Below are positions 4,706 to 23,798 of a stretch of DNA of 64,000 nt, in pieces. The position numbers and the translations under genes are program-made. Source of the DNA: Nonomuraea angiospora (GTDB lineage: Bacteria > Actinomycetota > Actinomycetes > Streptosporangiales > Streptosporangiaceae); NCBI RefSeq assembly GCF_014873145.1, contig NZ_JADBEK010000001.1:2232001-2296000 (forward strand), written 5' to 3'. Position 1 is the first letter of the stretch. Every line of letters starts with the position of its first letter. The notes under the pieces are model-generated. The model was given only the letters and a program-made list of their open reading frames with translations. It ran no database searches and was not told the DNA's origin.

Positions 4706-4723
4706 GCCGAATATGCTGAAACG

Positions 4724-4739: not shown

Positions 4740-4760
4740 GGCAAGCCGGGAGGTCCTGCC

Positions 4761-5644: not shown

Positions 5645-5662
5645 TCAAGCCCCAAATCACGC

Positions 5663-5701
5663 GCTCGTCCCGGCGCCCACCACACAGGCACCGGGACGAG
5701 C
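5663..5701. terminator. hairpin terminator after secreted-protein gene
   Basis: Perfect 11-bp stem (GCTCGTCCCGG paired with CCGGGACGAGC), extended inward by three more pairs after one mismatch, 19 bases after the stop codon. There is no T-run, as is common in actinomycetes. Confidence 0.7.
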
Positions 5702-5703
5702 AC

Positions 5704-5979
5704 ATTCAGCCCCCGCCACCCTCCAAGGCCCCGGCTGCCGTCCAGCGTTCCCGCCGCCCTTCAACCCCCGCCGCCCTTCAACCCCCGCCACCCTTCAACC
5801 CCCGCCACCCTCCAGACCCCTGCCGCCGATCAGGCCCCGACCGCCGTTGCGGCATCACCGCCGGGACGAGCGCGCCTGGACGCCCACCGACGTTGCACCC
5901 ACCCCTGCTACAGACCGTTGCGGGCACCACCCGCTGGAAGGAGCCGTTGCGGCGCACCCCGCCGGGACGGGCGCGTCCG
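5704..5979. repeat. C-rich 17-bp minisatellite and neighbouring repeats
   Basis: The 430-bp gap before the kinase gene holds no convincing gene. From 5743 to about 5827 it has four to five 17-bp units of the type TTCAACCCCCGCCACCC (starts at 5760, 5777, 5794, with a decayed copy at 5811). A second pair of 36-37 bp direct repeats beginning CCGTTGCGGC follows at 5844-5879 and 5944-5980. Confidence 0.75.
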
Positions 5980-6076
5980 GCACGCCCGCCGGGAGGGGCC
6001 GCATCCGACACACCCGTCGCAACGCCCTCCCCCAGTCGGTTCTGCGTTCCGGGGACGATGCCGCCATGCTGGGACG

Positions 6077-6910: not shown

Positions 6911-7151
6911 CCACGTACCGCCGAGCGCCGCCCACACCCCCTCGCCGCCCGCACCCCACCCCCCGCGCCGCCCGTGCCCCCGCGCCGCCCGTGCCCCCCG
7001 CGTCCCGCGCCACCGCACGACCCGTGTGCCCGCGCCAATGCGGCAGGCGACCAGCGGGTAAGCACCGCAGCCAGGCCTGGCCGCGGGCGTTGCGTCCCAC
7101 AGGCGGATCGTCCGCCTTCACGACGTGACCACCGCGATCACCGCTGGGAGC

Positions 7152-7259
7152 ATGCCGCCCAAGGCCCATTGGAAGGCCATGCAGATCTTGCGGGAACGCT
7201 ACGCCCTGCCTGCGATCATCACCACTGCTGACGCACTGCCGAGCCAGCTCACACCGTAG
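7152..7259 (+). CDS. small ORF of unknown function
   Basis: A 35-codon frame (MPPKAHWKAMQILRERYALP then an Ala/Thr-rich end) with a fair Shine-Dalgarno (GGGAG, 2-6 bases before the ATG). It lies beside a degraded recombinase gene, so it may be a relic of a mobile element gene rather than a working gene. No family recognised. Confidence 0.25.
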   Translation: MPPKAHWKAMQILRERYALPAIITTADALPSQLTP

Positions 7260-7264
7260 ATGAG

Positions 7265-7661
7265 TGCAGCGGAGACGGCGGCGTTGGATGAGGTCGGCTT
7301 CGGCGGTGACGCGGGCGGAAATCTCCGCACCGAGACGGACGTACGGCCGAAGCCCGGCCAGGCGCTGGTGGCGGCTCTTGGCCTGCAGTTCGGGCGCGGT
7401 GCGGCAGGCCCGGGCCAGATCCTGTGGCGGAACTGGTGCAGCTTCCATCCCTGCCGACGCGGGTCAAGCTTGGCCGAAGCATTCTTTGAACAGGTACTCG
7501 GCACGCGGGTGGGACAGCCGTCCGCGTCCGGTGGTCGGGTCGATGTCGGCGGTCGCGGATGTGCGCGGGCCGGAGGCAGGCGCACATCCATCGGCCAGGA
7601 ACAGCGGCCCTGCGGTACGGACGGTCGCTGCGCTCGGCCGATTGCCGCGAGCGGGCAGCAT
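7265..7661 (-). pseudogene. decayed tyrosine recombinase (integrase), C-terminal part
   Basis: Three adjacent minus-strand frames read on as one integrase C-terminus. The first has GRLSHPRAEYLFKE (ending near 7480). After a one-base shift comes DPRRQGWKLHQFRH, the HxxR box. After another shift comes RTAPELQAKSRHQRLAGLRPYVRLG, matching the box with the second His and the catalytic Tyr. Two frameshifts, a short deletion after the HxxR box and the absence of the N-terminal domain show it is dead. The rest of 6911-7739 has no working gene that I can support. It marks an old integration event next to the ABC operon. Confidence 0.65.
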
Positions 7662-7739
7662 CGTCCCGCAACCCGTCGCGGTGCCACGACCGCGATCACC
7701 GATCCCGCCCGCTCCCCGGCGCTGAACAGAACTGGCCTG

Positions 7740-8702
7740 TCAACCGGAGCGGCGGAGGGTGCGGCGGACGGCCAGGCCGCCGAGGGCCGCCGACGCGAAC
7801 GTCAGGATTGTGGCCTCGGTCCACTGGAAGCGCCAGAACCGGGACGGCGGGTGGTAGTACACCGCGTACCGGTAGCCCTTGCCGAACAGGCACGCCTGCC
7901 ACGCCCTGGTGTTCTTGTCGCTCTGCCCCGCGTCCACTCGCCGTGGACAGCCGCTATGGGCCGGCTCGGCGACCTCCCTCCCGGACGGCTCCACCCAGGC
8001 GGCGCTCACCAGCCGGGCGTCGGGATCGTCCAGCAGCACAGCGCCGGACAACTCGGTACGCGCCGGCTCGGCGTAGTAGTCGCTCAGCTGGAACAACGCG
8101 AACATCGTCACCGCCACACCGGCCACGACCAGCGCCATCGCGGGCATCGTACGCCGGAACAGGGTGCCGGCCAGAGTGCCCAGCGCGAATGCGTACAGCC
8201 ACCACGCCGCCGGCTCCACCCCGACCATGTTGAACACGCCGATATTGCCGAACGTGGAGTCGATCCCCGCCCTGAACACCGGCCGCCACAGGCTCACCAT
8301 GAGCGACAGCAGCAGCCCTCCGGCCACGACCCCCGCGCCCAGGACCGACAGCTTGACCGCCAGCCACCGCCACACGGGCACGGACTGGGTCCAGGCCAGG
8401 CGGTAGGTGCCGCGCTCGTACTCGCGGCCGAGCAGCGGCGCGCCCCAGAACGCCCCGATCAGCGCCGGCGCCACCAGCGGCATCCAGCCGAACACGGAGT
8501 AGATCGCGTCGTAGCGCTGCCCGAGCGCCACCGCGAGGTCTCCGCACGCAACGGCGGGCCCGGGGCAGCCGGGCGGGGCGTGCTCGGCCACGTACCGGCT
8601 CGCCTCCACCGCCGAACCCAGCAGCAGCACCCCCAGCAGCGCCAGGAAGCCCACTGTCACGAGGATCTGCGCCCGGTGCTGGCGCCACGTCACCCAGATC
8701 AC
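7740..8702 (-). CDS. ABC-2 type transporter permease
   Basis: A 320-residue membrane subunit with about six helices. It starts WVTWRQHRAQILVTVGFLALLG, typical of actinobacterial ABC-2 permeases in YtrA-regulated operons, and ends LTFASAALGGLAVRRTLRRSG. GTG 8702 overlaps the stop of the ATPase gene by 4 bp, which implies translational coupling. A large extracytoplasmic loop (about residues 60-90, with CPGPAVACGD) and a second soluble insert near residues 210-270 carry Cys residues. Substrate unknown; such systems often handle peptides, lipids or antibiotics at the cell envelope. Confidence 0.85.
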   Translation of the reverse strand: MIWVTWRQHRAQILVTVGFLALLGVLLLGSAVEASRYVAEHAPPGCPGPAVACGDLAVALGQRYDAIYSVFGWMPLVAPALIGAFWGAPLLGREYERGTYRLAWTQSVPVWRWLAVKLSVLGAGVVAGGLLLSLMVSLWRPVFRAGIDSTFGNIGVFNMVGVEPAAWWLYAFALGTLAGTLFRRTMPAMALVVAGVAVTMFALFQLSDYYAEPARTELSGAVLLDDPDARLVSAAWVEPSGREVAEPAHSGCPRRVDAGQSDKNTRAWQACLFGKGYRYAVYYHPPSRFWRFQWTEATILTFASAALGGLAVRRTLRRSG

Positions 8703-9544
8703 GCGCCCACCCCCGTCAGTCCCGGCAGCGCCGCTGACTCGGGGCTGCGCAGGTAGCCCATGACGAGCTCCTCCAACCTGGGGCGCCGCGCCTGCCAGCG
8801 CGGATCGAGCGGGGGCGCGCCCCTGATCAGCATGCTGACCTGCCTGCCGGCACGACTCGCCCACACCACCTGCGTCCCCGCCGCCGACGCCTCGTCCGGC
8901 CCGGTGAGCACGAGATGCCCGTCGAGCAGCTCCTCGATGTCACCGCTGATCTGCAGCCGACCCGTGTTCAGGACGACCAGCCAGTCGCACGTCTCCTCCA
9001 GGTCGGCGACGACGTGCGAGGACAGCAGCACGGTCAGCTCCCGTTCGGCCAGCTCCGCCATGATCGAGCGCATCACGTCGTGGCGGGCGAGGGGGTCGAG
9101 GTTGGCCAGCGGCTCGTCCAGCACGAGCAGGTCGGGCCGGCTGGCCAGCGCCAGCGTGACCGCCACCTGTGCCTGCTGCCCGCCCGACAGCCTGCCCACC
9201 TTCTGCTTCAGCGGGATGCCCAGCCCGGCGAGCCGGTGGGCAGCTGCTGCGGCGTCCCAGCGGGTGTTCATGCGGCGGCCGAAGGCGAGCATCTCAGCGA
9301 CGGTGAAGCTTTCGTACAGCGGCTTGTCCTGTGCCACGAACGCCGCCTCGCCGGCCACGCGGACGCTTCCCAGCGCGGGCCGCAGCAGGCCCACGGCCGC
9401 GTGCATGAGCGTGGTCTTGCCCGCGCCGTTGGGCCCGACGAGCGCCGCCACGCGTCCCGCGGGCACGGACAGCGAGCAGTCGCGCAACGCCCATGTACGG
9501 CGATAGCGGACCCCCAGCCCGGTCGCCTCCAGCGCGGGCCTCAT
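8699..9544 (-). CDS. ABC transporter ATP-binding protein
   Basis: A 281-residue nucleotide-binding subunit. Walker A is GPNGAGKTT, the Q-loop region VAQDKPLY, the signature LSGGQQAQV, Walker B DLLVLDEPLANLDP and the switch His is in LLSSHVVADL. The C-terminal 60 residues are an extra domain of unknown role, common in ABC-2 ATPases. The ATG at 9544 overlaps the stop of the gntR gene by 4 bp, and the 3' end overlaps the permease start by 4 bp. It energises the downstream permease. Confidence 0.93.
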   Translation of the reverse strand: MRPALEATGLGVRYRRTWALRDCSLSVPAGRVAALVGPNGAGKTTLMHAAVGLLRPALGSVRVAGEAAFVAQDKPLYESFTVAEMLAFGRRMNTRWDAAAAAHRLAGLGIPLKQKVGRLSGGQQAQVAVTLALASRPDLLVLDEPLANLDPLARHDVMRSIMAELAERELTVLLSSHVVADLEETCDWLVVLNTGRLQISGDIEELLDGHLVLTGPDEASAAGTQVVWASRAGRQVSMLIRGAPPLDPRWQARRPRLEELVMGYLRSPESAALPGLTGVGA

Positions 9545-9942
9545 GCCACGCCCTTCTTCACGGCGTCGGCCAGGACCACGCTGAACAGCGCCCGCAGGTC
9601 CTCCTGATCGAGCTCTGCCGCGCGGGCGTCGCGCACCCACGCCTCCAGATCGCGCCGCAGCCGCGTGTGCTCGGCGAGCGTCGGGCCCGCGATGCCGCGC
9701 CGAACGAACGTCCCCATTCCTGGCCGCCCCTCGACCAGCCCTTCGCGCTCCAGCTCCCGGTATGCCTTGAGCACGGTGTTGGGGTTGATGGCCAGGCTCT
9801 CGACCACCTCGCGGGCGGTCGGCAACTGGTCACCGGGCCGCAGTGTGCCGAGCCGGAGCGCCTGTTTGACCTGGTGAACGAGCTGCAGGTACGTCGAGAC
9901 GCCCGAGCTGCGGTCCAGGTTGAACTCGATCAACCAAAACAT
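9541..9942 (-). CDS. GntR-family regulator, YtrA type
   Basis: A 133-residue repressor with the GntR winged helix in the first 75 residues (PGDQLPTAREVVESLAINPNTVLKAYRELEREGLVEGRPGMGTFV) and the short C-terminal dimerisation helix that defines the YtrA group. It is the first gene of a three-gene operon with 4-bp overlaps (gntR, ATPase, permease). Its ATG lies inside the left arm of a 15-bp perfect inverted repeat, so the protein probably shuts off its own operon until a cell-wall-active signal arrives (known for YtrA; inferred here). Confidence 0.92.
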   Translation of the reverse strand: MFWLIEFNLDRSSGVSTYLQLVHQVKQALRLGTLRPGDQLPTAREVVESLAINPNTVLKAYRELEREGLVEGRPGMGTFVRRGIAGPTLAEHTRLRRDLEAWVRDARAAELDQEDLRALFSVVLADAVKKGVA

Positions 9943-9973
9943 CCTTTCACTAACTGAATAGTGAAAGGATGTT
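9938..9973. promoter_or_regulatory. YtrA-type operator overlapping the gntR start
   Basis: Perfect 15-bp inverted repeat (AACATCCTTTCACTA and its complement) around a 6-bp centre. The gntR start codon (9940-9942) and the AAAGGA that would serve as Shine-Dalgarno are part of the repeat. A bound repressor would block both transcription and access to the start. In RNA the same arms could fold and hide the start codon. Confidence 0.8.
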
Positions 9974-10214
9974 GGTTTGGGACGCTCGTTGTCAACCTGC
10001 AGTTGTCAGGCGACGCCGTGTTCGGCATAGGGACGGGTCTGGAGGCAGCAGGTCTTGACCGACGTCGCCGACGCCCGCCCGACCCGGTGCCTGCCCGCGA
10101 CCGATGAGCAGCGCTGATCGTAACCGCCCGCCTGCTGGCGACCCGGTCGCCGGTGTCACGAGGAGGGTCGCCCCGATGAGTGGGATGCCGCCGGTCGAGT
10201 CGAGGCGGGGATGG

Positions 10215-12671
10215 CTACGGCGTGTCGGTGATCGCGCCGTCCAGGCCGGAGCGTTTGAGATCTAGCGTGCTCAGGTCGCATCCGCGCAGGTCGACGCCCG
10301 TCAGGTCACACTCACGGAACGACGTGTGGTCGAGGATCGCACCGGCGAAGACAGCGCCGGTCAAGGTCGCCGGCTGGATCATCGCACTGCCCAGCCGAGT
10401 GAAGGCGATGTTCGCGTCGACCAACTCGCTGTAGCCGAACCCCGCCCTGGTGAGGTCCACGCCGGCCAGGTTGGCGCCGGTCAGGTCGGCACCGGAGAAG
10501 ATGGCGCCGCGTGCGGACGCTCGCGACAGATCCGCGCCGGCGAGGTTGGCACCGGCGAAGAGCATCTGGTCGAGGTCCAATCCGCGTAGATCGGCGCCGG
10601 AAAGATCGAGTTCTTCCTCCGCGTTGCCGGCGCGCCACTGATTGAAGGCGTACGGCCCCTGTCTCAGGATCCCGATGACCTCCGCCGGTCCCCCTGCCGT
10701 CGCCCCGCCGGCCTCCCCGTCGAGACGCCCCACCCGCTCAGGACCGTCGGGGGTGCGGGCGACGGGCGCGTCGAGGACGGCGACTTCCTCCCTCGCGATG
10801 GCGAGTTCCGCGGCAAGTTCCTCGTCGTACGGATACATCTCCGCCATCGCCTCCACCATCGAGAGGCGAGTGCTCAGCAGTTTCAGCGCGTTGTCCCGAT
10901 CGCCGCCGCGCTTGGCCAGGTCGGCGAGGCGCTGGAAGGCCAGGCCGGCTTCCAGGGCGGTTTCCGAGCTCGGGTTCGCCTGGAAGAGCCGGGTACGGAT
11001 CCACGAGCACTCGGCCCAGGTCTCGTATTCCTGGTCCGCGTGCTCCGGCAGGTCGAGCGCGCGGTACACCTCGCCGAGGTGCTGCAACGAGCCGGCGAGC
11101 CGCTGGTCCGCTTCGATGAAGGTCGGGTGCTCGGCCGCGAGCTCGTGGTAGATGTCCACGGCGGCCGTGAGCACGGCCTCGGCCGCCGCCGGCCGGCCGT
11201 CGGCGAAGCGGGCCTGGCCGCAGGTGTCGTACGCGGCTCCGAGACAGAACCTGGCCTCGTCACGCTGCGGGTGGGTGGCGGCCCACTCCTTGACGGCGGA
11301 CAGCGATCGTTCGGCCACCTCTCGCGCGGCGCGCGGGAAGTCGTGCCGGATCAACATGGCGACCAGGTGGTCGCGGATGGGACGGTGGTGGCCGTTGCCT
11401 GCCGGCACGTACGGCGCGATCTCTCCCAGGAGCGCCATCCCCGCGTACTCGGAGTCCGTCTCCAGGCTCTCGACGACGGCGAGGACGAAGTGCGTCAGGT
11501 CACCCATCCCCTGGACCGCCAACAGGTGCCGGCAGACCGCGACGTAGTCGTCGAACGTGCCGTCGCCGTGCGTCCGGGTGTAGTGCATGTTCATGGCGCG
11601 CTCGTGACGGTCGGCGATCGCCGGGCCTTGGTGCGGCGCGAGCATCTCCGCGAGCCAGCGGTCGGCGAAGTAGACGGTGTCCCCGTCCCACCCCTCCCAC
11701 CCGTTGAGCAGTCCGAGCTCGGCGAGCCGGGCCGCGGTGTCCTGCACGCTTTTGAGCGCCGCCCGCTTGGGCTTCGGGCGCTCCCTCCGGTCGGGCTCGC
11801 GGGTGTCGCAGGCGACGGCCAGGTCGTACGCGGTGACGGGGACGGTGGAGATCGCGGCCTGGAGCAGGGTCTCCCGCTGTTCCCCTGTCAGCTCGGCCAT
11901 GATGAGGTCGAGCGGTACGGCCCCCGATGCCACGGCCGCGAGCCGTTCCCCCACACCCTGGGGGTTCGCCGCCAGCCAGGCGTCGGCCAGTTGCAGGGAC
12001 CGTGGATGCGCCGCGGTCGCGCGGACCACTCGCTCCCGGGTGGCCGGATCCGCCGTGGACAGGAACGGCAGCCCGGCTGCCAGCTCGGTTCCCGCGGTGA
12101 GGTCCAACGGGTCGAGCCGTAGGACACCGAGCCGGTCGTCCGTGGTCGACGGCGGTAGTGAGGTCCGGCTGGTCACCAGCACCCGGCCGCGATCGGCGGC
12201 CTGGCACAGCCGGTCGAACGCCTCGCCGAAGCCGGGATCCAGGTAGCCCGCGCCGTCGAGGTTCTGGCTCAGGTCGTCGAAGAGCAGGACAAGGGGGAAG
12301 CTCTTCAGCAGCCGGCAGGTCGTGTCGAACATGGCGTCGTCCGACGGAGCCAGGCCGAGGGCTCCCATCATGCGCGTCTGTTCCTGGGAGAGCTCCTCGC
12401 CCCAGCCTAAGAAGGCCTCTGTGACACCTCGGAACAGCGTTTGCGGCGACCACCTGCCCACCACGGCGGCCACTCCCCAGCCATCGGCCTGAAGCCGCCC
12501 GAGCACCTGGCGGGCCAGGGCGCTCTTGCCCATCCCCGCTCCCCCGGTGATCACCAGCCCGGCCGGAGCTGCGGCCAGCGTGGTCAGCGCGGCCCGCACG
12601 TCCGGCTCTCTGGCCAGGCCGGGCGGTCCGAGCCGCCGCACCTCCGGGCTCATGTTCTCGTCCCCGTTCAC
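10215..12671 (-). CDS. STAND NTPase with TPR-like helices and pentapeptide repeats
   Basis: An 818-residue signal-transducing ATPase. Walker A GGAGMGKSAL at residues 43-52, Walker B VLLFDDLS near 128-135, and GRVLVTSR near 162-169 form an NB-ARC/STAND nucleotide module. A helical middle follows with TPR-like pieces (AREVAERSLSAVKEWAATH, LGEVYRALDLPEHADQEYETW). The last 135 residues are pentapeptide repeats of the A(D/N)LxG type, a right-handed beta-helix. GTG 12671 has GGAGG six bases upstream; the frame stays open and protein-like further upstream. There is no N-terminal effector domain, unusual for STAND proteins. Function could be regulation or phage sensing; neither is shown. Confidence 0.82.
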   Translation of the reverse strand: MNGDENMSPEVRRLGPPGLAREPDVRAALTTLAAAPAGLVITGGAGMGKSALARQVLGRLQADGWGVAAVVGRWSPQTLFRGVTEAFLGWGEELSQEQTRMMGALGLAPSDDAMFDTTCRLLKSFPLVLLFDDLSQNLDGAGYLDPGFGEAFDRLCQAADRGRVLVTSRTSLPPSTTDDRLGVLRLDPLDLTAGTELAAGLPFLSTADPATRERVVRATAAHPRSLQLADAWLAANPQGVGERLAAVASGAVPLDLIMAELTGEQRETLLQAAISTVPVTAYDLAVACDTREPDRRERPKPKRAALKSVQDTAARLAELGLLNGWEGWDGDTVYFADRWLAEMLAPHQGPAIADRHERAMNMHYTRTHGDGTFDDYVAVCRHLLAVQGMGDLTHFVLAVVESLETDSEYAGMALLGEIAPYVPAGNGHHRPIRDHLVAMLIRHDFPRAAREVAERSLSAVKEWAATHPQRDEARFCLGAAYDTCGQARFADGRPAAAEAVLTAAVDIYHELAAEHPTFIEADQRLAGSLQHLGEVYRALDLPEHADQEYETWAECSWIRTRLFQANPSSETALEAGLAFQRLADLAKRGGDRDNALKLLSTRLSMVEAMAEMYPYDEELAAELAIAREEVAVLDAPVARTPDGPERVGRLDGEAGGATAGGPAEVIGILRQGPYAFNQWRAGNAEEELDLSGADLRGLDLDQMLFAGANLAGADLSRASARGAIFSGADLTGANLAGVDLTRAGFGYSELVDANIAFTRLGSAMIQPATLTGAVFAGAILDHTSFRECDLTGVDLRGCDLSTLDLKRSGLDGAITDTP

Positions 12672-12787
12672 GATCGTCCTCCAGCAGGCACGACGAATTG
12701 GACTGATCAACCCCCGATTGCCGGGTGAGCCTACTTGATCGTCGGCGATCTCTTGGGCGATCTCCGAAATGAGCCAGTCATCGAAGT

Positions 12788-14149
12788 TCAGCAGCCTGGT
12801 GATGCCGGGCGGTCGGCTCCGGATCCAGCGGTCTGCCGCGGCCCGCCGGCGCGCGAGGGCAGCAGCACGACGACGAGTACGGCGCCGAGCGCCACGCAGA
12901 GCGCGCCCGCCGTGAGCCCGCCCGAGTAGCCCATGACGGCCAGCGCGGCCACCCCGACGGCGCCGCCGATCTGCTGGACGGAGGTGAACAGGGCCGAGCC
13001 GAGACCGACGTCCTCCTCGGTGGTGCCGTCGACCGCGGCCACCGCCATGACGGGCAGGCTCAGCCCGTTGCCCACACTCAGGATGAGCATGCCGGGCAGG
13101 ACGTGGGCGGCGTAGGAGTCACCCGCCGCCACGCCGGACAGCAGCAGCAAGCCGGCGATGTTGACCAGGAACGCCAGCAGGAGCGCCCAGCGCGTCCCGA
13201 TCCTGAGCGAGACACGGGAGGACAGCCACATGCCCGCCAGGATGCCGGCACCGTAGGGCAGGTAGGCGATGCCGGCCAGGAGCGGGCTGTAGCCCAGAGC
13301 GGTCTGCACCTGGATCATCAGCAGGAACGACATCGCGTACATCGCCATCGAGAACAGCAAAGTCGCGCCGTTGGCGACCGCCCGCGTCCGCGAGGCCAGG
13401 AACGATCCGGGCACCAGCGGCGCCGCCGCCCGCGACTCGGCCACCAGGAACCCCACCGCCAAGACGGCGGAGAGCACGACGGCTCCGATGACGAGCGGAT
13501 CGCTCCAGCCGGTCTCGCCGGAGCGCAGCAGCCCGTACACCAGCGACACCGCGGCACCGGTGACCAGGACCGCGCCGGGAACGTCGAGGCGGCGCCGGCC
13601 GGGCGCGCGGGACTCGGGGACCAGGCGGGGCAGCGACGCCAGGGCCACGGCGACGACGGGCAGGTTGATCAGGAAGATCCAGCGCCAGGACACCAGGTCG
13701 GTCAGCGCCCCGGACAGCACCAGGCCCGAGGTCCCGCCCAGGGCCGCGATGCCGCCCCAGATGCCCAGCGCCCTGGCCCGCTCCTCCGGCCCCGGATACA
13801 GCAACGTGATCATCGACATCGCCGCAGGCCCGGCCATCGCGGAACCGGCGCCCTGCACGAACCGCCCGATCACGAGCTGCCACGGCTCCCGCGCCAGCCC
13901 GCAGGCCAGACTGGCCGCCCCGAACAGCGCCACCCCGACCAGGAAGACGCGGCGACGGCCCAGCAGATCCGCCATCCGGCCGCAGAGCAGCAGCAGACCG
14001 CCGAAGGCCAGGAAGTAGGCGTTGGCGACCCAGGGCAGCCCGGACGCGCTGAAGCCCAGCTCATCGCGGATGCTGGGCAGGGCCACGTTCACGACGGTGT
14101 CATCGAGCACCAGCATGAACTGGACAAGACACAACACAATCATCGGCAC
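12788..14149 (-). CDS. DHA2-family MFS multidrug transporter
   Basis: A 453-residue exporter of the 14-helix DHA2 (EmrB/QacA) family. Helix 1 has VLDDTVVNVALPSI, loop 2-3 GRMADLLGRRRVFLVG, and helix 5 GGTSGLVLSGALTDLVSWRWIFLINLPV (motif C region). The start is GTG 14149 or the ATG two codons later. It is divergent from an AraC regulator over 60 bp, so it is probably under that protein's control. The gene ends about 116 bp before the STAND start. Confidence 0.92.
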   Translation of the reverse strand: MPMIVLCLVQFMLVLDDTVVNVALPSIRDELGFSASGLPWVANAYFLAFGGLLLLCGRMADLLGRRRVFLVGVALFGAASLACGLAREPWQLVIGRFVQGAGSAMAGPAAMSMITLLYPGPEERARALGIWGGIAALGGTSGLVLSGALTDLVSWRWIFLINLPVVAVALASLPRLVPESRAPGRRRLDVPGAVLVTGAAVSLVYGLLRSGETGWSDPLVIGAVVLSAVLAVGFLVAESRAAAPLVPGSFLASRTRAVANGATLLFSMAMYAMSFLLMIQVQTALGYSPLLAGIAYLPYGAGILAGMWLSSRVSLRIGTRWALLLAFLVNIAGLLLLSGVAAGDSYAAHVLPGMLILSVGNGLSLPVMAVAAVDGTTEEDVGLGSALFTSVQQIGGAVGVAALAVMGYSGGLTAGALCVALGAVLVVVLLPSRAGGPRQTAGSGADRPASPGC

Positions 14150-14210
14150 CCGACGACGCTATGGTCCGCCGCGTTTGGCCACAATTCGCGACGAGGCCAG
14201 ACTGTGTCGC

Positions 14211-14957
14211 ATGGAGGACATGGGCGCGATCATCGTCGGCCACTTCCCGCTGACCTCCGGGGAGTGGATCCCGCCGCACAGCCACACCCACCACCAGCTC
14301 GCCTGGACCCGGCGCGGCGTCCTGGGCGTCGAAGTGGGCGAGGTGTACTGGGTCCTGCCGCCCACCCGGGCACTGTGGCTGCCCGCCGGTGTCATCCACG
14401 CGACCGGCGCGACCCGCGACGCCGTACTGTGCAGCCTGTACCTGGCGCCGGAGCGCTGCCCCCTGGACTGGCCCGAGCCCACCGCGGTCGGCGTGGACGG
14501 CCTGCTCGCCGAGCTGATCGGCTACCTGGCCCGCCCCGGCCTCGCCGACGACGCGCGGCTGCGCGCCGAGGCCGTGCTGCCCGACCTGCTGCGCCCGCTG
14601 CCCACCCGGCCCATCGACGTGCCGCAGCCCACCGACGAGCGGGTCCAGGTGGTGGCGGCCGCCCTGCTGGCCGACCCCGCCGACCCGCGCAGCCTGGAGG
14701 CTCACGCCCGCGCGGCGGGCGTGAGCAGGCGAACCTTGACCCGGCTGTTCGTACGCGACACGGGCATGAGCTTCGACCACTGGCGCACACAGGTACGGCT
14801 GCGCGCCGCCCTGCCGCTGCTGGCAGAGGGCCAGCCGGTTTCACGGGTGGCACACAGCGTGGGGTACGCGACGGCGAGCGCGTTCCTGGCCGCCTTCCGC
14901 CGCACGGTCGGCACCACACCCCGGCGCTACCTGCTCAGCCGCGGATCATGGGGTTGA
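14211..14957 (+). CDS. AraC-family regulator with cupin sensor
   Basis: A 248-residue regulator. Residues 1-110 form a cupin (PPHSHTHHQLAWTRRGVLGVEV, WLPAGVIHATGA) that would bind a small ligand. Residues 150-245 hold the double HTH ending YATASAFLAAFRRTVGTTPRRYL. ATG 14211 is used; a second ATG three codons on is equally possible. It diverges from the DHA2 efflux gene, a common arrangement for ligand-induced export. Confidence 0.92.
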   Translation: MEDMGAIIVGHFPLTSGEWIPPHSHTHHQLAWTRRGVLGVEVGEVYWVLPPTRALWLPAGVIHATGATRDAVLCSLYLAPERCPLDWPEPTAVGVDGLLAELIGYLARPGLADDARLRAEAVLPDLLRPLPTRPIDVPQPTDERVQVVAAALLADPADPRSLEAHARAAGVSRRTLTRLFVRDTGMSFDHWRTQVRLRAALPLLAEGQPVSRVAHSVGYATASAFLAAFRRTVGTTPRRYLLSRGSWG

Positions 14958-14978
14958 CGCGGGTCACCGAGCCTGCGC

Positions 14979-15380
14979 CTAGGAGACGCGTTCGGCGTTG
15001 GAGATGTAGCCGCCTCCGCCCGGGTAGACCCAGGCGCCGTTGAGGGTGGTGTCATCGGCGCTGAAAGTGCCCTGGTAGTAGGCGGGTGAGCCGCGCTCGC
15101 CGGCCCAGATGGTGAGGGTGTCACCGAGGAGCTCGTAGGTGTAGTCCAGGGTGCTGCCGTCATCGCCGTAGTAGCGGGAGGTGATGTCGGCGCCGGGTTC
15201 GGCCATCAGCTTGCGCTCCCGGCCGATGATCTCGATGCCGAAGGTGTCACCGAGCCGGACGTCCTGCTGGAGGAAGTGGTCGTTCAGCCAGCGGTAGGTG
15301 ACGGTTCCCTCATGACCGCCGGTGATCTTCCACGTGCCGACGAGCCGGGCCAGGGCCTGCAGTGCGGGGTCGTTGCTCAT
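14979..15380 (-). CDS. DUF1579-like small lipocalin-type protein
   Basis: A 133-residue soluble protein, LARLVGTWKITGGHEGTVTYRWL then a run of beta strands (FLQQDVRLGD, GIEIIGRERK, TSRYYGDDGS, YTYELLGDTLTIWAG). This resembles the DUF1579/lipocalin-like proteins that often accompany oxidoreductases. ATG 15380 is preceded by GAGGGAG. The frame is open upstream to 15443, but that part looks non-coding. Function unknown. Confidence 0.75.
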   Translation of the reverse strand: MSNDPALQALARLVGTWKITGGHEGTVTYRWLNDHFLQQDVRLGDTFGIEIIGRERKLMAEPGADITSRYYGDDGSTLDYTYELLGDTLTIWAGERGSPAYYQGTFSADDTTLNGAWVYPGGGGYISNAERVS

Positions 15381-17962: not shown

Positions 17963-18883
17963 TCAGGGGCGGAGGCGGGAGGAGGGAGTGGCGGGGGAGG
18001 CCGGGCGGCCGACCCGGGCCACGTGGAGGAGGGTACGGGGGTCCGCGACGCCCAGCCGGTCCGCGAGCGTCCGTCTGGTCGGCTCGCAGTCGATGATCTG
18101 GCTCAGCGGGTGCGTGGCGTAGCCGTGGGCGGACAGGGTGAGCCAGTGCCGCATCAGCACGCGCCCCAGCTCCAGCTCGTCCTCGACCGCCCCCACCAGC
18201 ACCAGGACGTCCCCGTCGTAGTCCAGCAGGTCCCGCGAAGCGCCGGCCAGCACCCGGGGCAGGCCCAGGGGGCGCAGGGCCGGGTAGAGGGCGAGCGAGG
18301 CGCGCAGGCCGATGGCCTCCGCCCTGCTGAGGGACAGGGCCCGGTCGGTGAGGCCGTCGAGCAGGTAGCGGCGGTGGCGGCGGGTGAGCCGCAGCCAGGC
18401 GCGCAGCTCCCGCGTCACCTCCCGGTCGCCGAACTGGTGCAGGTCGGCCGCGTGCAGCAGGTCCGCGAGGTCGCGGCAGGCCAGCCGCCGCATCCCGGTC
18501 AGCTCCGCGACCAGCGGGTCCGGCAGGCGTCCCGGGTGGTACTCGCCGCGGTTGGCCCCGCGCGCCCGGACGTCCGCCGTCGTGAAGGGCGTCCGGTACG
18601 GCTGCGCGGCGGCGTACAGGACACCCACCCGGCGCGGCCCCGGATCGGGACGGAACCCGACGGACAGGCCGGCGTCGGCGCAGACGATCAGGCAGCACTC
18701 CACGAACGCGCCCAGGCTCAGGCGCAGGTCGCGGCCCGTGGGGTCGCTGATGGGCAGGGCGCGTGAGGGGTCCCAGCCGACCTCGGCCCCGTCGTCCGTG
18801 TAGGTGAGGGTCCAGGGCTGGGTGTTGTGGGCGCTGGGGGCCCGCCAGAAGTCCGGCTCCAGCGGCCGCAGCCGGTCTTTCAC
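17963..18883 (-). CDS. Acg-type FMN nitroreductase
   Basis: A 306-residue flavoprotein of the Acg group. The signature WRAPSAHNTQPWTLTY near residue 12 and SLGAFVECCLIVCADAGL near 60 match the first half of the nitroreductase fold. LDYDGDVLVLVGAVEDELELGRVLMRHWLTLSAHGYATHPLSQI forms the second half. GTG 18883 overlaps the stop of the upstream gene by 4 bp, making it the last gene of a four-gene coupled operon. In this context it may oxidise or reduce a product of the ligase/acyltransferase pair (inference). An earlier in-frame extension is only a shadow of the neighbour. Confidence 0.85.
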   Translation of the reverse strand: MKDRLRPLEPDFWRAPSAHNTQPWTLTYTDDGAEVGWDPSRALPISDPTGRDLRLSLGAFVECCLIVCADAGLSVGFRPDPGPRRVGVLYAAAQPYRTPFTTADVRARGANRGEYHPGRLPDPLVAELTGMRRLACRDLADLLHAADLHQFGDREVTRELRAWLRLTRRHRRYLLDGLTDRALSLSRAEAIGLRASLALYPALRPLGLPRVLAGASRDLLDYDGDVLVLVGAVEDELELGRVLMRHWLTLSAHGYATHPLSQIIDCEPTRRTLADRLGVADPRTLLHVARVGRPASPATPSSRLRP

Positions 18884-19956
18884 GCCGTCAGGCCCTTCTC
18901 GTAGAAGGTGTAGCCGTGCAGGGGGCGGCCGCCCATCGCGGTGTACTGGGCGGCGGATCCGGGGTTCGTGCGCTCGACGTACGTGCTGCGCAGCGCCCGG
19001 TAGCCGCCCCGGCGCAGCCCGTCGTGCAGTTCCCGGGACAGCAGCCGCATGTAGCCGTGGCCCTGCTCCCCGGGGACCGTGCCCTTGATGATGAGCACGG
19101 CCTCGCTGCGGTAGCGGGATCGGGTGGCCAGCAGGCGGAGCTGGTTCAGGAGGTGGAGATTGCCACGAATTTTCGCGATAAATCGCGAAATGTCGGGCAA
19201 GCACAGCACGAACGCGACCGGCCGCTCCCCCTTCGTCAGGTACAGCAGCAACGACTCGTCCAGCAGGTACGCCAGCCCGTCCGTCTGCGCCGCGAGCTGC
19301 TCCGCCGAGATCTCCGTGTAGTAGCCGAGCTGCGCGAAACTGGCGTTCAGCATCTCCCGCAGGATCGGCAGCTGCTCCGCCACGCGCCGCCGGTCGCCTC
19401 GGTGCACGCGCAGCCCCTCGGCCGCGATCCGCCCGTCGTCGAACGCGAACACCGGCTCCTCCGGCACCGGGCAGATCCAGGTGTCGGACTCGAAGCGGCG
19501 CGCGAAGCCGCACGCCTCGTACGCGACCGGATAGTACGGGTGGTTCCAGGCGCTGTCGATGAAGCCGCGCTCGCCGAACCCGGACGTGATGACCCCGCCT
19601 GCCTGGTTGGGCAGCAGCGACACCGGCCCGAACACCGCCTCCTTCCCGGCGGTGCGCCCGGCCGCGAGGATGTCGTCGAACAGCTCCTCCGCCGCCTCCT
19701 CCGCGAACTCGGTCAGCCCGAACAGCTGCGTGGCCCGGCCCAGCTTGGCGTCCAGCGCGGCGTCGGTGTGCAGGGTGGTCCGCGCGACCACCCGCCCGCG
19801 CCGCCTGAGCAGGAACAGCCGTACCCCTTGCCGGTGCCACGCGCGTACCTGCGCGTGCAGCGGCGGAATGAAGCGCGGCTCGCCCGCGTAGACGCGGTCG
19901 GTCAGAGAGAGGAAGTCGCGCAGGTCACGGCGGCTCTCAACGGGATGCAGCGTCAC
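18880..19956 (-). CDS. GNAT-fold acyltransferase-like protein (YghO-like)
   Basis: A 358-residue protein. The start SRRDLRDFLSLTDRVYAGEPRFIPPLHAQVRAW follows the YghO-like pattern (short helix, then PPL), then RGRVVARTTLHTDAAL and GKEAVFGPVSLLPN. The C-terminal half has AFVLCLPDISRFIAK and a GNAT-like end (GYMRLLSRELHDGLRRGGYRALRSTYVERTNPGSAAQYTAMGG). It probably transfers an acyl group, perhaps one activated by the ligase two genes upstream (inference). GTG 19956 overlaps the upstream stop by 4 bp, and its own stop overlaps the nitroreductase start by 4 bp. It contains an odd AT-rich 20-bp palindrome (19171-19190). Confidence 0.75.
   Translation of the reverse strand: MTLHPVESRRDLRDFLSLTDRVYAGEPRFIPPLHAQVRAWHRQGVRLFLLRRRGRVVARTTLHTDAALDAKLGRATQLFGLTEFAEEAAEELFDDILAAGRTAGKEAVFGPVSLLPNQAGGVITSGFGERGFIDSAWNHPYYPVAYEACGFARRFESDTWICPVPEEPVFAFDDGRIAAEGLRVHRGDRRRVAEQLPILREMLNASFAQLGYYTEISAEQLAAQTDGLAYLLDESLLLYLTKGERPVAFVLCLPDISRFIAKIRGNLHLLNQLRLLATRSRYRSEAVLIIKGTVPGEQGHGYMRLLSRELHDGLRRGGYRALRSTYVERTNPGSAAQYTAMGGRPLHGYTFYEKGLTA
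19171..19190. repeat. 20-bp palindrome within the GNAT-like gene
   Basis: Perfect inverted repeat TTTCGCGAT-AA-ATCGCGAAA in the middle of an otherwise very GC-rich reading frame. The codons it forces (such as ATT, TTT, AAA) are rare in the surrounding gene. It could be a protein-binding site; no function shown. Confidence 0.7.
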
Positions 19957-20411
19957 CCGCGCCTCACCCGGGGACCTTCGCCGTCCTCGACGGACAGCTC
20001 CGTGGACAGCGGGGTGAACGTCTCGATGTGCGCCATCGGCCCGCCCTCCGCGCGCCAGACCCCGTTGCTGTAGCCCTCCGGCTCGGCGTTGTAGAGCCGG
20101 ATGTAGCCGCCGGTGGCGTTCCTGGTGCCGTCCGTCACCCACTGCATGAGCTTGCGGTGGTGGCGGCTGCGGGCGAAGCGCAGCAGCGCGTCGCGGTCCT
20201 CGAAGAACGCGAGCGTGCCCAGCGTGAACGGGAACTCCCAGTAGACCTTGTGCCAGCAGTAGCCGCGCATCCGCTTCATGTCCCGCACCATGCGGAACCA
20301 CGTCAGGGTGAGCGTGAATATCGACAGCGGCCCCCGGTAGCGGGTCGCGCCGACGAACATCGCCGTCGCCCGCCCCTGCGGCGGGGCCTTGCTGAAGTCC
20401 GTGGTCCTCAT
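19953..20411 (-). CDS. DUF4188-like monooxygenase-fold protein
   Basis: A 152-residue protein: YRGPLSIFTLTLTWFRMVRDM, YCWHKVYWEFPFTLGTLAFFEDRDALLRFARSRHHRKLMQWV, GTRNATGGYIRLYNAEPEGYSNGVWRAEG. This looks like a dimeric alpha-beta barrel of the antibiotic-monooxygenase type, close to DUF4188, though I cannot confirm the family without a search. It overlaps the upstream ligase stop by 4 bp (ATGA) and the downstream gene by 4 bp, so it is translated as part of the four-gene unit. Confidence 0.7.
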   Translation of the reverse strand: MRTTDFSKAPPQGRATAMFVGATRYRGPLSIFTLTLTWFRMVRDMKRMRGYCWHKVYWEFPFTLGTLAFFEDRDALLRFARSRHHRKLMQWVTDGTRNATGGYIRLYNAEPEGYSNGVWRAEGGPMAHIETFTPLSTELSVEDGEGPRVRRG

Positions 20412-21952
20412 GCGTCCTTCACCAGGTAGACGTTCTTCATCTTCGTGAGCCCGGCGAACGGCCCCTCGCCCGGGTCGAAGACCTTGACGCGCAGGTCGGC
20501 GGCCGTCGGGTCCTCCTTGAGCGACTCGGCGAAGTCGCGCGAGACGGCGCTCAGGTGGGCGACCACGCCCTTGCGGCAGATCTCGGCGAGTTCGCCGCGG
20601 TCGGCGGCGCCGGGGCCGCGCAGCTCGATGTTGATCACCGGGCGGTACTCCAGGCCCGGCAGCTCCTCCAGCGACAGGCAGAACCGGTTGATCGCGGCCG
20701 CGTACGGGTTGCCCTGGTAGAGGCCGTACTCGACGTCCTGCGGATACAGGTTGGCCCCCATGTAGGAGATCGTCGAGTCCTTGCGGCCGAACAGGAACAG
20801 CAGCGGCAGGTTCATCCGCTCGTCGGTCCACGCGCGCTCGTACGCGTCGGCGCCGAGCGCCCGCTTGACGTCGGCGAGGGTGTGCAGCCTGGCCTCGTCG
20901 CCGACGTTGTAGCGGAGCTTGGGCTGCAGGCAGCTCTTGGTGTTGATGGTGCACAGCAGCTCGCCCTCGCTGTTGACCTCCAGGAACGTCTCCAGCGGGT
21001 TGTAGTGGAAGATCATCGGCAGCCGCTGCTCCCCCGGCCCGAGCAACAGCTCGCGCAGCCCCCGGTCGGTGGCCAGGCGCCTGCGTAGCCACACGCTGAA
21101 CCCGCTCTCGGCGCCCATCCCGATCGTCAGGTCGCTGGCGCCGTAGCCGGAGCGGACCTCCTCGAAGCGCTCCTCCAGGTAGTCGCGCAGCGCCTCGGTC
21201 ATGCCCTCGCCGCCGACCATGCCGCGGATGCGGTAGTCCGCCCACGGGAAGCCGCTCTCGTCCAGGCGGTCGCGCAGGTGCTTGAGGAACGGCGGGTACG
21301 CGGCCACCACGTAGTCGTAGCCGGGCCCGAAGTGCTCCAGCGTGTCGGCGATCTTCTCCAGGTCGGGGCCGGTGTTCTTGACCATCGCCACGCGCGCCAT
21401 GGCGGTGCCCGTGGTGGTGCCGGTGGCCCAGGCGCCCATCGAGTACGCGTTGATCACGAACAGCCGCCTGCCGGGGAAGACCAGCTCGATGTAGCCGGCC
21501 GCGTTGCGGTAGATGCCCTTGAGCTCGCGCGGCCCGCGTACCCAGTTGTACGGCTTGCCGCTGGACCCCGACGACTCGTCCACGATCACGCCGGGCCGGT
21601 GCAGTCTGCCCTCCTGGCAGCGGCTCTCCTCGTCGTACACGGCGGCGTAGTTCTGCTTGCTGGTCTCGGGGAAGTCCGCCAGCCGCCTGGCGTGCCCGGC
21701 GCCGTTCGCCCGCAGGAAGTGCCGGTAGGCGGGCACGTCCACGGCGGCGAACTGGCAGGCCAGCCTGGCGTGCCGGGCCGCCAGCCAGTCGAAGGCCGGG
21801 TGGTAGCTCCGGGCGACGAGCCGCCAGATGGCGGGGTGCATCGCGCCCAGCCGGTACGCGCCGGTCAGGGACCAGGAGCAGGCCTGGAGGCGGGCCCTCC
21901 GCCAGCGCTGGCGCAGGGTGAGCGGCCCGAGAGCCGGGCTGAGGCGGGTCAT
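20408..21952 (-). CDS. PaaK-like adenylate-forming ligase
   Basis: A 514-residue member of the ANL superfamily, phenylacetate-CoA-ligase group. The phosphate-binding loop is DESSGSSGKPYNW near residue 124. The ATP site region includes VGGEGMTEALRDYLEERF and SGYGASDLTIGMG, and the hinge motif is LFLFGRKDSTISYMGANLYPQDVE. It would activate a carboxylate as an adenylate for CoA or acyl transfer. It is the first gene of an operon coupled by 4-bp overlaps with a DUF4188-like protein, a GNAT-fold protein and a nitroreductase. It diverges from a BldC-like regulator. The long insert between the P-loop and the core (TTTGTAMARVAMVKNTGPDLEKI) is as in PaaK relatives of unknown substrate. Confidence 0.85.
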   Translation of the reverse strand: MTRLSPALGPLTLRQRWRRARLQACSWSLTGAYRLGAMHPAIWRLVARSYHPAFDWLAARHARLACQFAAVDVPAYRHFLRANGAGHARRLADFPETSKQNYAAVYDEESRCQEGRLHRPGVIVDESSGSSGKPYNWVRGPRELKGIYRNAAGYIELVFPGRRLFVINAYSMGAWATGTTTGTAMARVAMVKNTGPDLEKIADTLEHFGPGYDYVVAAYPPFLKHLRDRLDESGFPWADYRIRGMVGGEGMTEALRDYLEERFEEVRSGYGASDLTIGMGAESGFSVWLRRRLATDRGLRELLLGPGEQRLPMIFHYNPLETFLEVNSEGELLCTINTKSCLQPKLRYNVGDEARLHTLADVKRALGADAYERAWTDERMNLPLLFLFGRKDSTISYMGANLYPQDVEYGLYQGNPYAAAINRFCLSLEELPGLEYRPVINIELRGPGAADRGELAEICRKGVVAHLSAVSRDFAESLKEDPTAADLRVKVFDPGEGPFAGLTKMKNVYLVKDA

Positions 21953-22017
21953 GAACGGTGAGACTAGTGGGCCGGGTAGAAGATCACTTTATGCCCACTT
22001 TCATCGGTTTCATGCAC

Positions 22018-22052
22018 TCCCTATCCTTCCCTATTGTGTGCCATCATAGGGA
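22018..22052. promoter_or_regulatory. triple TCCCTAT repeat in the divergent promoter
   Basis: TCCCTAT occurs at 22018-22024 and 22028-22034 as a direct repeat with 10-bp spacing. Its complement ATAGGGA at 22046-22052 makes an inverted repeat with the second copy (11-bp spacer). It lies between the PaaK-like operon and the BldC-like gene, and the last copy merges with the Shine-Dalgarno of the latter. BldC is known to bind direct repeats, so autoregulation and control of the operon are likely (inference). Confidence 0.6.
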
Positions 22053-22057
22053 GCGAT

Positions 22058-22450
22058 ATGGAGCATTACACCGTCGAACAGGTGGCGTCCCTGCTCGGGT
22101 TGCACGTCAAGACCGTCCGCAACTACGTACGCGACGGGCGGCTGCCGGCCGTGCGCATCGGCAAGCAGTACCGGATCGCCAAGGAGGACTTGGCGGCCTT
22201 CACCGGCACGCCGATCCGCGCGCCCCGCCGCGCGGAGGCGTCGAGCATCGTGCAGATCGACGGCATCGCCAGGGGCGACATGGACCGGGTCAGCACGATG
22301 GTCCTGGGGTCGCTGGCGAGCCGGCCCCATGGGCTGCGCGTGGAGTTCGTCTACGACGAGGAGCGCGAGCACCTGAAGGTAATCGTGCTGGGCGGGCTGG
22401 AGGACAGCGCCCAGGTCCTGAGGATCATCGACGCGCTGGTACGGGAGTGA
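22058..22450 (+). CDS. BldC/excisionase-like helix-turn-helix regulator
   Basis: A 130-residue protein. Residues 1-50 are a MerR-like helix-turn-helix of the BldC/excisionase kind: YTVEQVASLLGLHVKTVRNYVRDGRLPAVRIGKQYRIAKEDLAAF. The C-terminal 75 residues (GLRVEFVYDEEREHLKVIVLGGLEDSAQVLRIIDALV) look like a small alpha/beta sensor or dimerisation domain. ATG 22058 follows GGGAG. It is divergent from the PaaK-like operon and followed by a DUF4180 gene. The TCCCTAT repeats just upstream are probable binding sites. Confidence 0.85.
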   Translation: MEHYTVEQVASLLGLHVKTVRNYVRDGRLPAVRIGKQYRIAKEDLAAFTGTPIRAPRRAEASSIVQIDGIARGDMDRVSTMVLGSLASRPHGLRVEFVYDEEREHLKVIVLGGLEDSAQVLRIIDALVRE

Positions 22451-22542: not shown

Positions 22543-22905
22543 GACGACCGCGTATACGTCTGCGAGCCGCACGGCGAGCCGCTGCGCGAGACCCGCGACG
22601 CGCTCGACCTCCTCGGCGAGGCCTTCGGCAGGGGCGCGAGCTGGGTGGCCGTCCCCGCCGGGCGGCTGCACGACGACTTCTTCGCGCTGCGCACGGGCGT
22701 GGCGGGCGAGATCGCGCAGAAGTTCGTCAACTACCGGGTCGGGCTGGCCGTCGTGGGGGACATCTCCCGTTTCACCGCCGCCAGCTCGGCGCTGCGTGAC
22801 TGGGTGGTCGAGTCGAACCGGGGCGGGCACGTCTGGTTCGTCGGCGACCTGGAGGAGCTGGCGGCCCGGCTGCCGGCTCGCGAGGATCCCGCGAGCCGGA
22901 CCTGA
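22537..22905 (+). CDS. DUF4180 domain protein
   Basis: A 122-residue protein with the DUF4180 pattern: RDALDLLGEAFGRGASWVAVPAGRL, DDFFALRTGVAGEIAQKFVNYRVGLAVVGDIS and DWVVESNRGGHVWFVGDLEELAARL. ATG 22537 fits the family's length and has GGAGA seven bases upstream; an in-frame ATG at 22456 would add an unlike 27 residues. Function of the family is unknown. Its stop codon is inside a 16-bp tandem repeat. Confidence 0.85.
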   Translation: MLDDRVYVCEPHGEPLRETRDALDLLGEAFGRGASWVAVPAGRLHDDFFALRTGVAGEIAQKFVNYRVGLAVVGDISRFTAASSALRDWVVESNRGGHVWFVGDLEELAARLPAREDPASRT

Positions 22906-22964: not shown

Positions 22965-23798
22965 TCAGGCGCGGCGGGCGGCCACGGCGGCGAGCATCTC
23001 CCAGGCCGCCTCGGGGTGCAGCGTCTCGTCCGGCTCCGTGTGGAACGGGTCGAGGACGACCGCCTCCGCGCCGAGCAGCCGCAGCTCCTCCAGGTCGGCC
23101 ATGACCTGCTCGATCGTGCCCTCGCCCGCGCGCCGCTCCGCCAGTGGCTCGTCGGTGATCCGCAGCAGGATCCTGGGCGTCAGGGCGGGCACCGGCCGGC
23201 CCTCCTCGGCGGCGATCTCCTTCAGGCGCGACCAGTGCTCGCGCAGCCAGGGCAGGGTGTTCCGCAGCGGGTGCCATCCCTCGCCGTAGCGCACCGCCCT
23301 GCGCAGCCCCGCCTCGCTGCCGCCGCCGACCCAGATCGGCACGCCGCCGCCGGAGCGGTAGTCGTCCTCGTCGGCCCAGGCGGCGCGGATGGCGGCGAGG
23401 TATTCGTCGGTCACCTTGCCGCGCCGCTCGTACACCGCCCCCAGCGCCTCGAACTCCTGCCGCGCCCACCCGATCCCCACGCCCAGCACCAGCCGCCCGC
23501 CGCTGAGGTCGTTGAGGTTGGCCGCCATGCGGGCGACGAGCAGCGGGTGGCGGTACGGCACGATGAGCACCGTGGTGCCGATCCCGATCCGCGTGGTGGA
23601 GCCGGCGAGCCAGGCCAGGGTCGTGAACGGTTCGTAGAACGGCGCGGGATACTGCTCGGCGACGTCCGAGGTGATCGCCACATGGTCGGAGACCATGAGC
23701 AGGTCGTATCCGAGCCCCTCGACCGTCTGGGCCCAGCTGCGCAGCACGCCGGGGTTGGTGCCGGGGCCGAAATTGGGAACGTTCACGCCGATTCGCAC
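22965..23798 (-). CDS. LLM-class F420-dependent oxidoreductase
   Basis: A 277-residue TIM-barrel enzyme: RIGVNVPNFGPGTNPGVLRSWAQTVEGLGYDLLMVSDHV, TTRIGIGTTVLIVPYRHPLLVARMAANL, GRLVLGVGIGWARQEFEALG and VPIWVGGGSEAGLRRAV. It lacks extra domains. It is a close paralogue of the gene at 50023-50826, sharing most of these blocks. Hydride transfer with F420 or FMN is expected; the substrate is unknown. Single gene. Confidence 0.9.
   Translation of the reverse strand: MRIGVNVPNFGPGTNPGVLRSWAQTVEGLGYDLLMVSDHVAITSDVAEQYPAPFYEPFTTLAWLAGSTTRIGIGTTVLIVPYRHPLLVARMAANLNDLSGGRLVLGVGIGWARQEFEALGAVYERRGKVTDEYLAAIRAAWADEDDYRSGGGVPIWVGGGSEAGLRRAVRYGEGWHPLRNTLPWLREHWSRLKEIAAEEGRPVPALTPRILLRITDEPLAERRAGEGTIEQVMADLEELRLLGAEAVVLDPFHTEPDETLHPEAAWEMLAAVAARRA

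Follow-up and report, generated by a model that had tools for sequence, protein, structure and literature searches.

We analyzed a 64,000-nucleotide stretch of the Nonomuraea angiospora genome (contig NZ_JADBEK010000001.1, positions 2,232,001 to 2,296,000; hereafter, the window), focusing on a cassette of four minus-strand genes. They lie head to tail and encode, in order, a PaaK-like ligase, a small DUF4188-like protein, a GNAT acyltransferase, and a flavin-dependent oxidase (FDO), as summarized in Table 1. The host genome is a single contig of 13.09 Mb. Each gene overlaps the next by 4 bp, with the junction sequences ATGA, GTGA, and GTGA in order. An earlier note, made from the sequence alone, had described four same-direction genes with successive 4-bp overlaps, and all of its coordinates and the three overlaps were correct. 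The closest named relative is Nonomuraea jabiensis, whose four proteins are 96% to 98% identical to those of the window. A scan for promoters and terminators returned one promoter-like and one terminator-like site, both inside genes. We discarded a role as a defense system, as PADLOC gave no match at E ≤ 0.01 for the four cassette proteins.

Table 1. Features of the cassette and the facing regulator (positions in the window)
Feature	Position	Strand	Details
PaaK-like adenylate-forming ligase	21952-20408	minus	514 aa, ATG start, first cassette gene
DUF4188 / af470-like small protein	20411-19953	minus	152 aa, ATG start, 4-bp overlap with ligase gene
Tandem GNAT acyltransferase (as modeled)	19956-18880	minus	358 aa, GTG start, 4-bp overlap with DUF gene
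Acg-type flavin-dependent oxidase (FDO), nitroreductase superfamily	18883-17963	minus	306 aa, GTG start, 4-bp overlap with GNAT gene
HTH_17/excisionase-type regulator facing the cassette	22058 (ATG) or 22034 (TTG) to 22450	plus	PF12728, E 1.3e-16
Inverted repeat CCCTAT...ATAGGG between ligase and regulator	22017..22063		possible operator

A four-gene unit conserved across actinobacteria

A search of genome contigs with the GNAT alignment yielded 94 stretches encoding a relative; the best 80 loci and their flanks were retained. Among these 80, the GNAT and the FDO were found in all, DUF4188 in 79, and the ligase in 77, with the cassette members on one strand and in one order across the loci. 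The three loci without a ligase match were L096, a 3-kb contig that also lacks DUF4188, and L032 and L034, where none was found within the flank. Junction distances were computed by taking the in-frame start nearest the upstream stop as the candidate start, a procedure with no shuffled control; this start lay no more than 20 bp from the upstream stop in 75/77 ligase-DUF4188, 77/79 DUF4188-GNAT, and 79/80 GNAT-FDO junctions, and an exact 4-base overlap was possible in 47, 74, and 57 loci, respectively. This neighborhood comparison by way of GNAT homologs had been suggested in the earlier note, and its outcome is that the four genes are kept together in one order across genera. The four-gene unit is real and widely kept across actinobacteria.

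Genera with the cassette include Micromonospora, Actinoplanes-type genera, Nocardia, Streptomyces, and Nonomuraea, among others. Its spread is patchy, with any GNAT match occurring in 14 genomes of a 394-genome class sample, five of them above 200 bits. When 59 genomes were searched, a close GNAT was present in 14 of the 36 from the same genus and a close ligase in exactly those 14. Across 77 loci, every pairwise comparison among the four proteins (six in all) showed correlated distances (Mantel r 0.61 to 0.88, 0/200 permutations as high, uncorrected for species kinship), and the unit is apparently jointly inherited. The cassette of Micromonospora chokoriensis and its kin lies near that of Dactylosporangium roseum/fulvum, with tree distances of 0.24, 0.10, 0.27, and 0.39 as against 1.56, 0.74, 1.62, and 1.98 to other Micromonospora, in a comparison whose groups were picked after the identities were seen. 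All four proteins show this likely transfer between the groups, and the cassette thus seems to pass from genus to genus as one unit.

Several loci depart from this layout. In some Nonomuraea, the ligase lies apart from the other three genes, by about 5 kb in L039 and on the same strand where seen, and in two genomes (G003 and G033) it lies 13 to 18 kb from the GNAT, also on the same strand. A cassette remnant in another genome (L222, G017:C399, 911-2230) fuses ligase residues 1-249 to FDO residues 100-305 without DUF4188 and GNAT, which looks like a deletion. At L115 (8804-9895) in genome G413, one of the five class-sample genomes above 200 bits, a GNAT 40% identical to that of the window has no ligase, DUF4188, or FDO match nearby.

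The ligase-FDO core and the four proteins

The ligase alignment was searched against two overlapping samples, one of 388 genomes from the class and one of 396 from the phylum. Ligases scoring at least 300 bits were found in 12 distinct genomes, and an FDO adjoins the ligase in 12/12. Five of these carry the full cassette (the window genome, G259, G134, G234, and G614, the last from outside the class), and seven carry a ligase-FDO pair only, in either gene order (G113, G516, G647, G560, G720, G510, and G686), with no GNAT or DUF match within the 8 to 17 kb examined. The core of the cassette is the ligase and the FDO. As a control, eight loci of ligase paralogs with about 29% identity gave no FDO, DUF, or GNAT match (one, L185, ends at a contig edge); with partners in 0/8 loci, these paralogs were rejected as members of the system. 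Ligases of 156 to 221 bits (L205-L207) also had no FDO found, one of these loci being on a 5-kb contig, in a lower-scoring control that leaves out one 53-bit match (G503). In two of the pair-only genomes (G720 and G510), an Acyl_transf_3 gene stands beside the FDO-ligase pair (L202, 7354-7959, and L203, 5029-6360), with the match in G720 partial and below the cut-off. This gene is possibly another acyltransferase recruited to the core.

The earlier note had named the four products as a carboxylate-activating PaaK-like ligase, a DUF4188-like protein, a 358-residue GNAT-fold protein, and an Acg nitroreductase. The window ligase has both the PaaK-type adenylate-forming fold and the adenylation motifs, but it reaches only 28.8 bits on the PaaK phenylacetate-CoA ligase equivalog TIGR02155 (cut-off 646.3), and plain PaaK membership was dropped on that account. 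The GNAT protein has the size and fold originally described, and we corrected its description to a tandem (two-domain) GNAT, as it is modeled. FeeM and acyl-homoserine lactone synthase folds are absent from the 50 matches listed for this model, an absence that excludes nothing.

The DUF4188-like protein of the window misses the gathering cut-off of PF13826 (Monooxy_af470-like; 20.5 bits against 25), whereas 15/18 family members match that model at E ≤ 0.01; a precomputed PF13826 assignment exists for 3 of 120 listed relatives. W53, H54, R81, H85, W91, R105, and R120 are invariant in 18 DUF4188-like sequences. No solved structure was found by searching with the DUF alignment, and the sole mention of DUF4188 in our literature searches was in a cysteine database. 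The gene is about twice as long in L097 (3891-4877, 328 aa) and L104 (6715-7689, 324 aa); the L097 protein keeps the start MRTTDFSKAP, and its extra sequence precedes the conserved part.

The window FDO is of the Acg type and belongs to the nitroreductase superfamily, matching the Acg family FMN oxidoreductase model NF047509 at 144 bits (E 7e-42) and PRK07877 at 33 bits, as well as structure 2ymv (E 1.5e-8). It falls below the NF047509 cut-off of 199, which another gene of the same genome exceeds (290.6 bits), and we did not retain plain Acg membership. In FDO trees, which were built without TyzC and OxzB, 30 cassette FDOs group together with 100/100 support, separate from TrzS domains and from other FDOs. 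Support for this clade drops to 90/57 once the seven pair FDOs and the long-branched L198 are added, and in that tree a 100/97 branch keeps every ligase-partnered FDO on the same side. An arginine invariant in 10 TrzS rows is kept in 30/30 cassette FDOs; it lies near the published R540, with which it is probably equivalent in numbering.

Related operons, ceramide-type clusters, and flanking genes

Plasmid records searched with the GNAT gave 14 matches, comprising 10 in Rhizobiaceae, two in Pseudomonas, and one each in Nonomuraea and Streptomyces. The Nonomuraea record holds the full cassette. An 11.85-Mb Nonomuraea gerenzanensis sequence filed as a plasmid (NZ_LT559118.1) looks, by its size, like the chromosome. 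In 10/10 Rhizobiaceae records, from Ensifer, Rhizobium, and Shinella, genes for a 314-aa protein, a ThiF adenylyltransferase, a membrane protein, a GNAT, and an FDO stand in a row (L143, L209, L210, L212-L216, L218, and L219, with two pairs near-duplicate). The ThiF and the GNAT are annotated as such in four records, one ThiF is assigned to PF00899, and three share 30% to 38% identity with TrzS-type ThiF parts over 92 to 192 residues (best segments, E 2e-7 to 2e-14). Compared with the cassette, this operon has a homologous GNAT (23% to 29%) and a homologous FDO (28% to 34%), adjacent and in the same order, but it has a ThiF in place of the ligase, no DUF4188, and two added proteins. Homologous GNAT and FDO genes are accompanied by ThiF in one phylum and by a PaaK-like ligase in the other. 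A description of the Rhizobiaceae operon was not found in literature searches, which were not aimed at Rhizobiaceae.

Adding Rhizobiaceae rows to the FDO tree gave a cassette clade of 97/87. The four Rhizobiaceae FDOs group with the cassette and two ligase-pair FDOs (22 rows, 97/93), and a 99/95 branch sets Rhizobiaceae (4), cassette (16), and ligase-pair (4) FDOs against TrzS (10) and other FDOs (20). New in this analysis are the core of ligase and FDO, an FDO lineage distinct from the others, and the presence of either ThiF or a PaaK-like ligase beside homologous GNAT and FDO genes. Some Rhizobiaceae records differ in detail: the GNAT reads as two pieces in L213/L214, and the FDO frame is shorter in L143 (272 aa). 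Neither the 314-aa protein nor the membrane protein of L210 has a Pfam or NCBIfam match at E ≤ 0.01, and an opposite-strand gene annotated as acyl-[ACP]--phospholipid O-acyltransferase adjoins the operon in L210, L212, and L218.

Other relatives of the GNAT are found beside serine palmitoyltransferase (SPT)-like pyridoxal phosphate (PLP) enzymes. In eight loci from the genus Nonomuraea (L106-L113, approximately 3000-15000), a GNAT distantly related to that of the window occurs with an SPT-like PLP enzyme (8/8), an MMPL-type transporter, an acyl carrier protein (ACP; 7/8), an NAD reductase (7/8), and a ketosynthase match (4/8). These clusters are likely a ceramide-type or N-acyl lipid pathway in Actinomycetota. 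In the Pseudomonas and Streptomyces plasmids, too, the GNAT has an SPT-like PLP enzyme and a reductase for neighbors, and in one of the Pseudomonas plasmids the GNAT match stops at an IS5 transposase gene.

Facing the cassette is a regulator that the earlier note had called BldC-like and had credited with its own repeat operator. The BldC label failed (15.6 bits against a cut-off of 77 for NF033787), the regulator and the inverted repeat are real, and a role of the repeat as an operator is only possible; its core is kept in N. jabiensis (L026). The regulator is present in 11/80 loci; ten carry Nonomuraea in their titles, and the remaining one is labeled [Actinomadura] parvosata. By our own gene calls, eight of these loci have a gene between the regulator and the ligase (AlkZ-like in the one locus tested). 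It is a genus-level neighbor, and we rejected it as a conserved part of the cassette. In PADLOC, the regulator matches mad1 over residues 2-48 and, weakly, a methyltransferase model. Beyond it lie genes for a DUF4180 protein (22546-22905) and an F420-type luciferase-like oxidoreductase (22965-23798), the latter matched in 6/80 loci, all Nonomuraea. An alcohol dehydrogenase gene 21 bp downstream of the FDO was likewise rejected as a fifth member, having 35% to 43% matches in 3/80 loci.

The flanks vary. By rough gene calls, families 0 to 3 are the cassette and family 4 is the opposite-strand shadow of the FDO gene; besides these, no flank family occurs in more than 15/80 loci. Recurring flank families are either generic (ABC ATPase) or confined to a single genus or to neighboring genera like Streptomyces/Embleya. 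In the Streptomyces/Embleya loci L059, L061, L062, L070, L077, and L082, the cassette comes just after ssb-rpsR-rplI-like genes, of which only the last two were called in L070, and in L114 it lies near ribosomal-protein genes; all these gene names were read from the sequence.

Proposed mechanism, alternatives, and known systems

N-acyl oxazolones are produced by an acyltransferase (TyzA/TrzA/OxzA), a ThiF-type ATP-dependent cyclase, and a nitroreductase-superfamily FDO (PMC10404671, PMC12856293). By analogy, we tentatively read the cassette as a self-contained biosynthetic unit of the N-acyl-amino-acid type that follows oxazolone logic with a PaaK-like ligase standing in for ThiF, and we put this somewhat below an even chance. 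It starts from the observed gene order and coupling, conservation as a unit, ligase-FDO core, Rhizobiaceae GNAT and FDO with ThiF, conserved motifs, and predicted folds; each reaction, substrate, ring, and product in it, and the role of DUF4188, is something we infer. The tandem GNAT would take an acyl group from acyl-CoA or acyl-ACP and attach it to the nitrogen of an amine or amino acid. With ATP, the PaaK-like ligase would then turn the free carboxylate of the N-acyl product into an adenylate, which would close to an oxazolone-type ring or be passed on. In TyzB/OxzB/TrzS this step falls to a ThiF cyclase, as it apparently does in the Rhizobiaceae operon too. The FDO, using O2, would desaturate the amino-acid part, and the DUF4188 protein would add or assist one further oxidative or ring-forming step. 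The earlier note had suggested that a small N-acyl metabolite is made or modified here, which is plausible with a putative substrate and product; its interpretation as a whole is partly supported. It knew of no described pathway with this gene set, and our literature searches likewise found no description of the four-gene unit.

A broader proposal is that a PaaK-type ANL ligase replaced ThiF as the carboxylate-activating cyclase in an FDO-dependent acyl-heterocycle lineage, and that, with the tandem GNAT (distantly of the ceramide type) and DUF4188, it defines a new class of metabolites, widespread in actinobacteria and of the N-acyl (dehydro)amino-acid or oxazolone type. We regard this as possible while leaning against it. 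Under such a takeover of the ThiF role, the ligase and FDO would have come first as a core, and different acyltransferases (GNAT and, in two loci, possibly Acyl_transf_3) would have joined it later.

Several observations weigh against oxazolone logic. The GNAT has no detectable homology to putative TrzA proteins (hhalign probability 0.2%, four rows, TrzA being the one acyltransferase of these pathways covered by the comparison), a result that lends no support to a TrzA relative, and a TrzA query matches 0/80 cassette loci. Two ThiF queries also match 0/80 loci, and the four cassette genes match no ThiF models, with the ThiF-part matches of the same genome lying elsewhere. Since a ThiF adjoining the FDO is absent from the cassette, the cassette is set apart from members of oxazolone clusters; its Rhizobiaceae relatives have this feature. 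The window FDO reaches 144 bits on the Acg/Rv3131 model against only 33 bits on the Rv1355c model, and it falls outside the TrzS (FDO-A) clade; according to PMC10404671, current data point to the FDO-B enzymes (Acg, Rv3127, Rv3131) having no part in oxazolones. Oxazolone logic also does not account for DUF4188. The Rhizobiaceae parallel is itself qualified: the GNAT there is closer to ceramide-type GNATs (26% to 29%, E 4e-34 to 2e-42) than to the window GNAT (26% over 261 residues, E 3e-19), and the GNAT tree places it with the ceramide type, apart from the cassette (100/100). The association of GNAT with FDO may therefore have arisen more than once.

The product of PaaK is a CoA thioester, and the ligase could therefore have no other task than providing the acyl donor. 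It would then supply acyl- or aryl-CoA to the GNAT, while the FDO and DUF4188 desaturate or hydroxylate the acyl or amine part, giving an open-chain N-acyl product with no ring closure. We consider this possible but rather doubtful: the commonest partner of the ligase is the FDO and not the GNAT, with 7/12 genomes having the two without a linked GNAT or DUF, and the homologous pair in Rhizobiaceae stands with ThiF, a carboxylate-adenylating family. The ThiF family is not known to make acyl-CoA. The same seven loci, which also count against our preferred assignment of the cassette to oxazolone logic, would suit a ligase-FDO unit of its own, performing acid activation and flavin oxidation (e.g. 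of an aromatic acid), with the GNAT and DUF4188 tailoring the acid to an oxidized aromatic or fatty amide unrelated to oxazolones. One fold neighbor of the cassette ligase, the PaaK-type ligase NatL2, couples aromatic acids through adenylate intermediates (PMC7204872), which is consistent with such a unit. No specific observation argues against this reading, although we think it unlikely.

In Nonomuraea, Streptomyces, and Pseudomonas, distant relatives of the GNAT stand beside SPT-like PLP enzymes, an ACP, and NAD reductases. This set resembles the Caulobacter ceramide genes (PMC11324152) and could mean that the GNAT is a relative of ceramide synthase and that the cassette builds or modifies a ceramide-like lipid. 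This is very unlikely, given that the ACP of those clusters and two SPT-like enzyme queries match 0/80 cassette loci and that the cassette and ceramide-type GNATs fall in separate clades. Nitroreductase and PaaK families are common in catabolism, and the patchy distribution would also fit an operon for degradation or detoxification, with activation of a xenobiotic acid and flavin reduction, instead of biosynthesis. Against it stand the unvarying set of four genes, which includes a GNAT, and the nature of the FDO, which is of the Acg type and not a classical nitroreductase; we judge it the most improbable of these readings.

If PaaK-for-ThiF substitution is correct, a second, non-homologous route to one activation step would enlarge the oxazolone class, the same reaction could be compared between ThiF and PaaK, and a separate lineage of Acg-type flavin oxidases would gain a function. 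The physiological role of oxazolones is described as a major question still to be answered (PMC12856293). The cassette covers only about 4 kb and can be expressed in one piece; the prediction is directly testable.

Among known systems, the PaaK-type AMP ligases NatL2, ClxA, and AjiA1 share 16% to 18% identity with the cassette ligase in structural alignment. In nataxazole, the NatL2 system, the ring is closed by a zinc enzyme. Ceramide-type clusters are represented by the Pseudomonas BYT-5 plasmid (L211), whose GNAT is a distant homolog about 26% identical to that of the window and, judging from its neighbor genes, probably corresponds to Caulobacter CC_1154; L211 has an SPT-like PLP enzyme, an ACP, and a reductase, and no PaaK-like ligase or FDO match. 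The oxazolone clusters tyzACB, trzAS (Mycobacterium tuberculosis), and oxzAB (Pseudoalteromonas rubra) are, like the cassette, compact sets of an acyltransferase, an ATP-dependent carboxylate-adenylating enzyme, and an FDO. Compared with them, the cassette has a PaaK-like ligase where ThiF would be expected and an extra DUF4188 protein, its tandem GNAT is not detectably related to the putative TrzA, and its FDO forms a clade of its own apart from TrzS.

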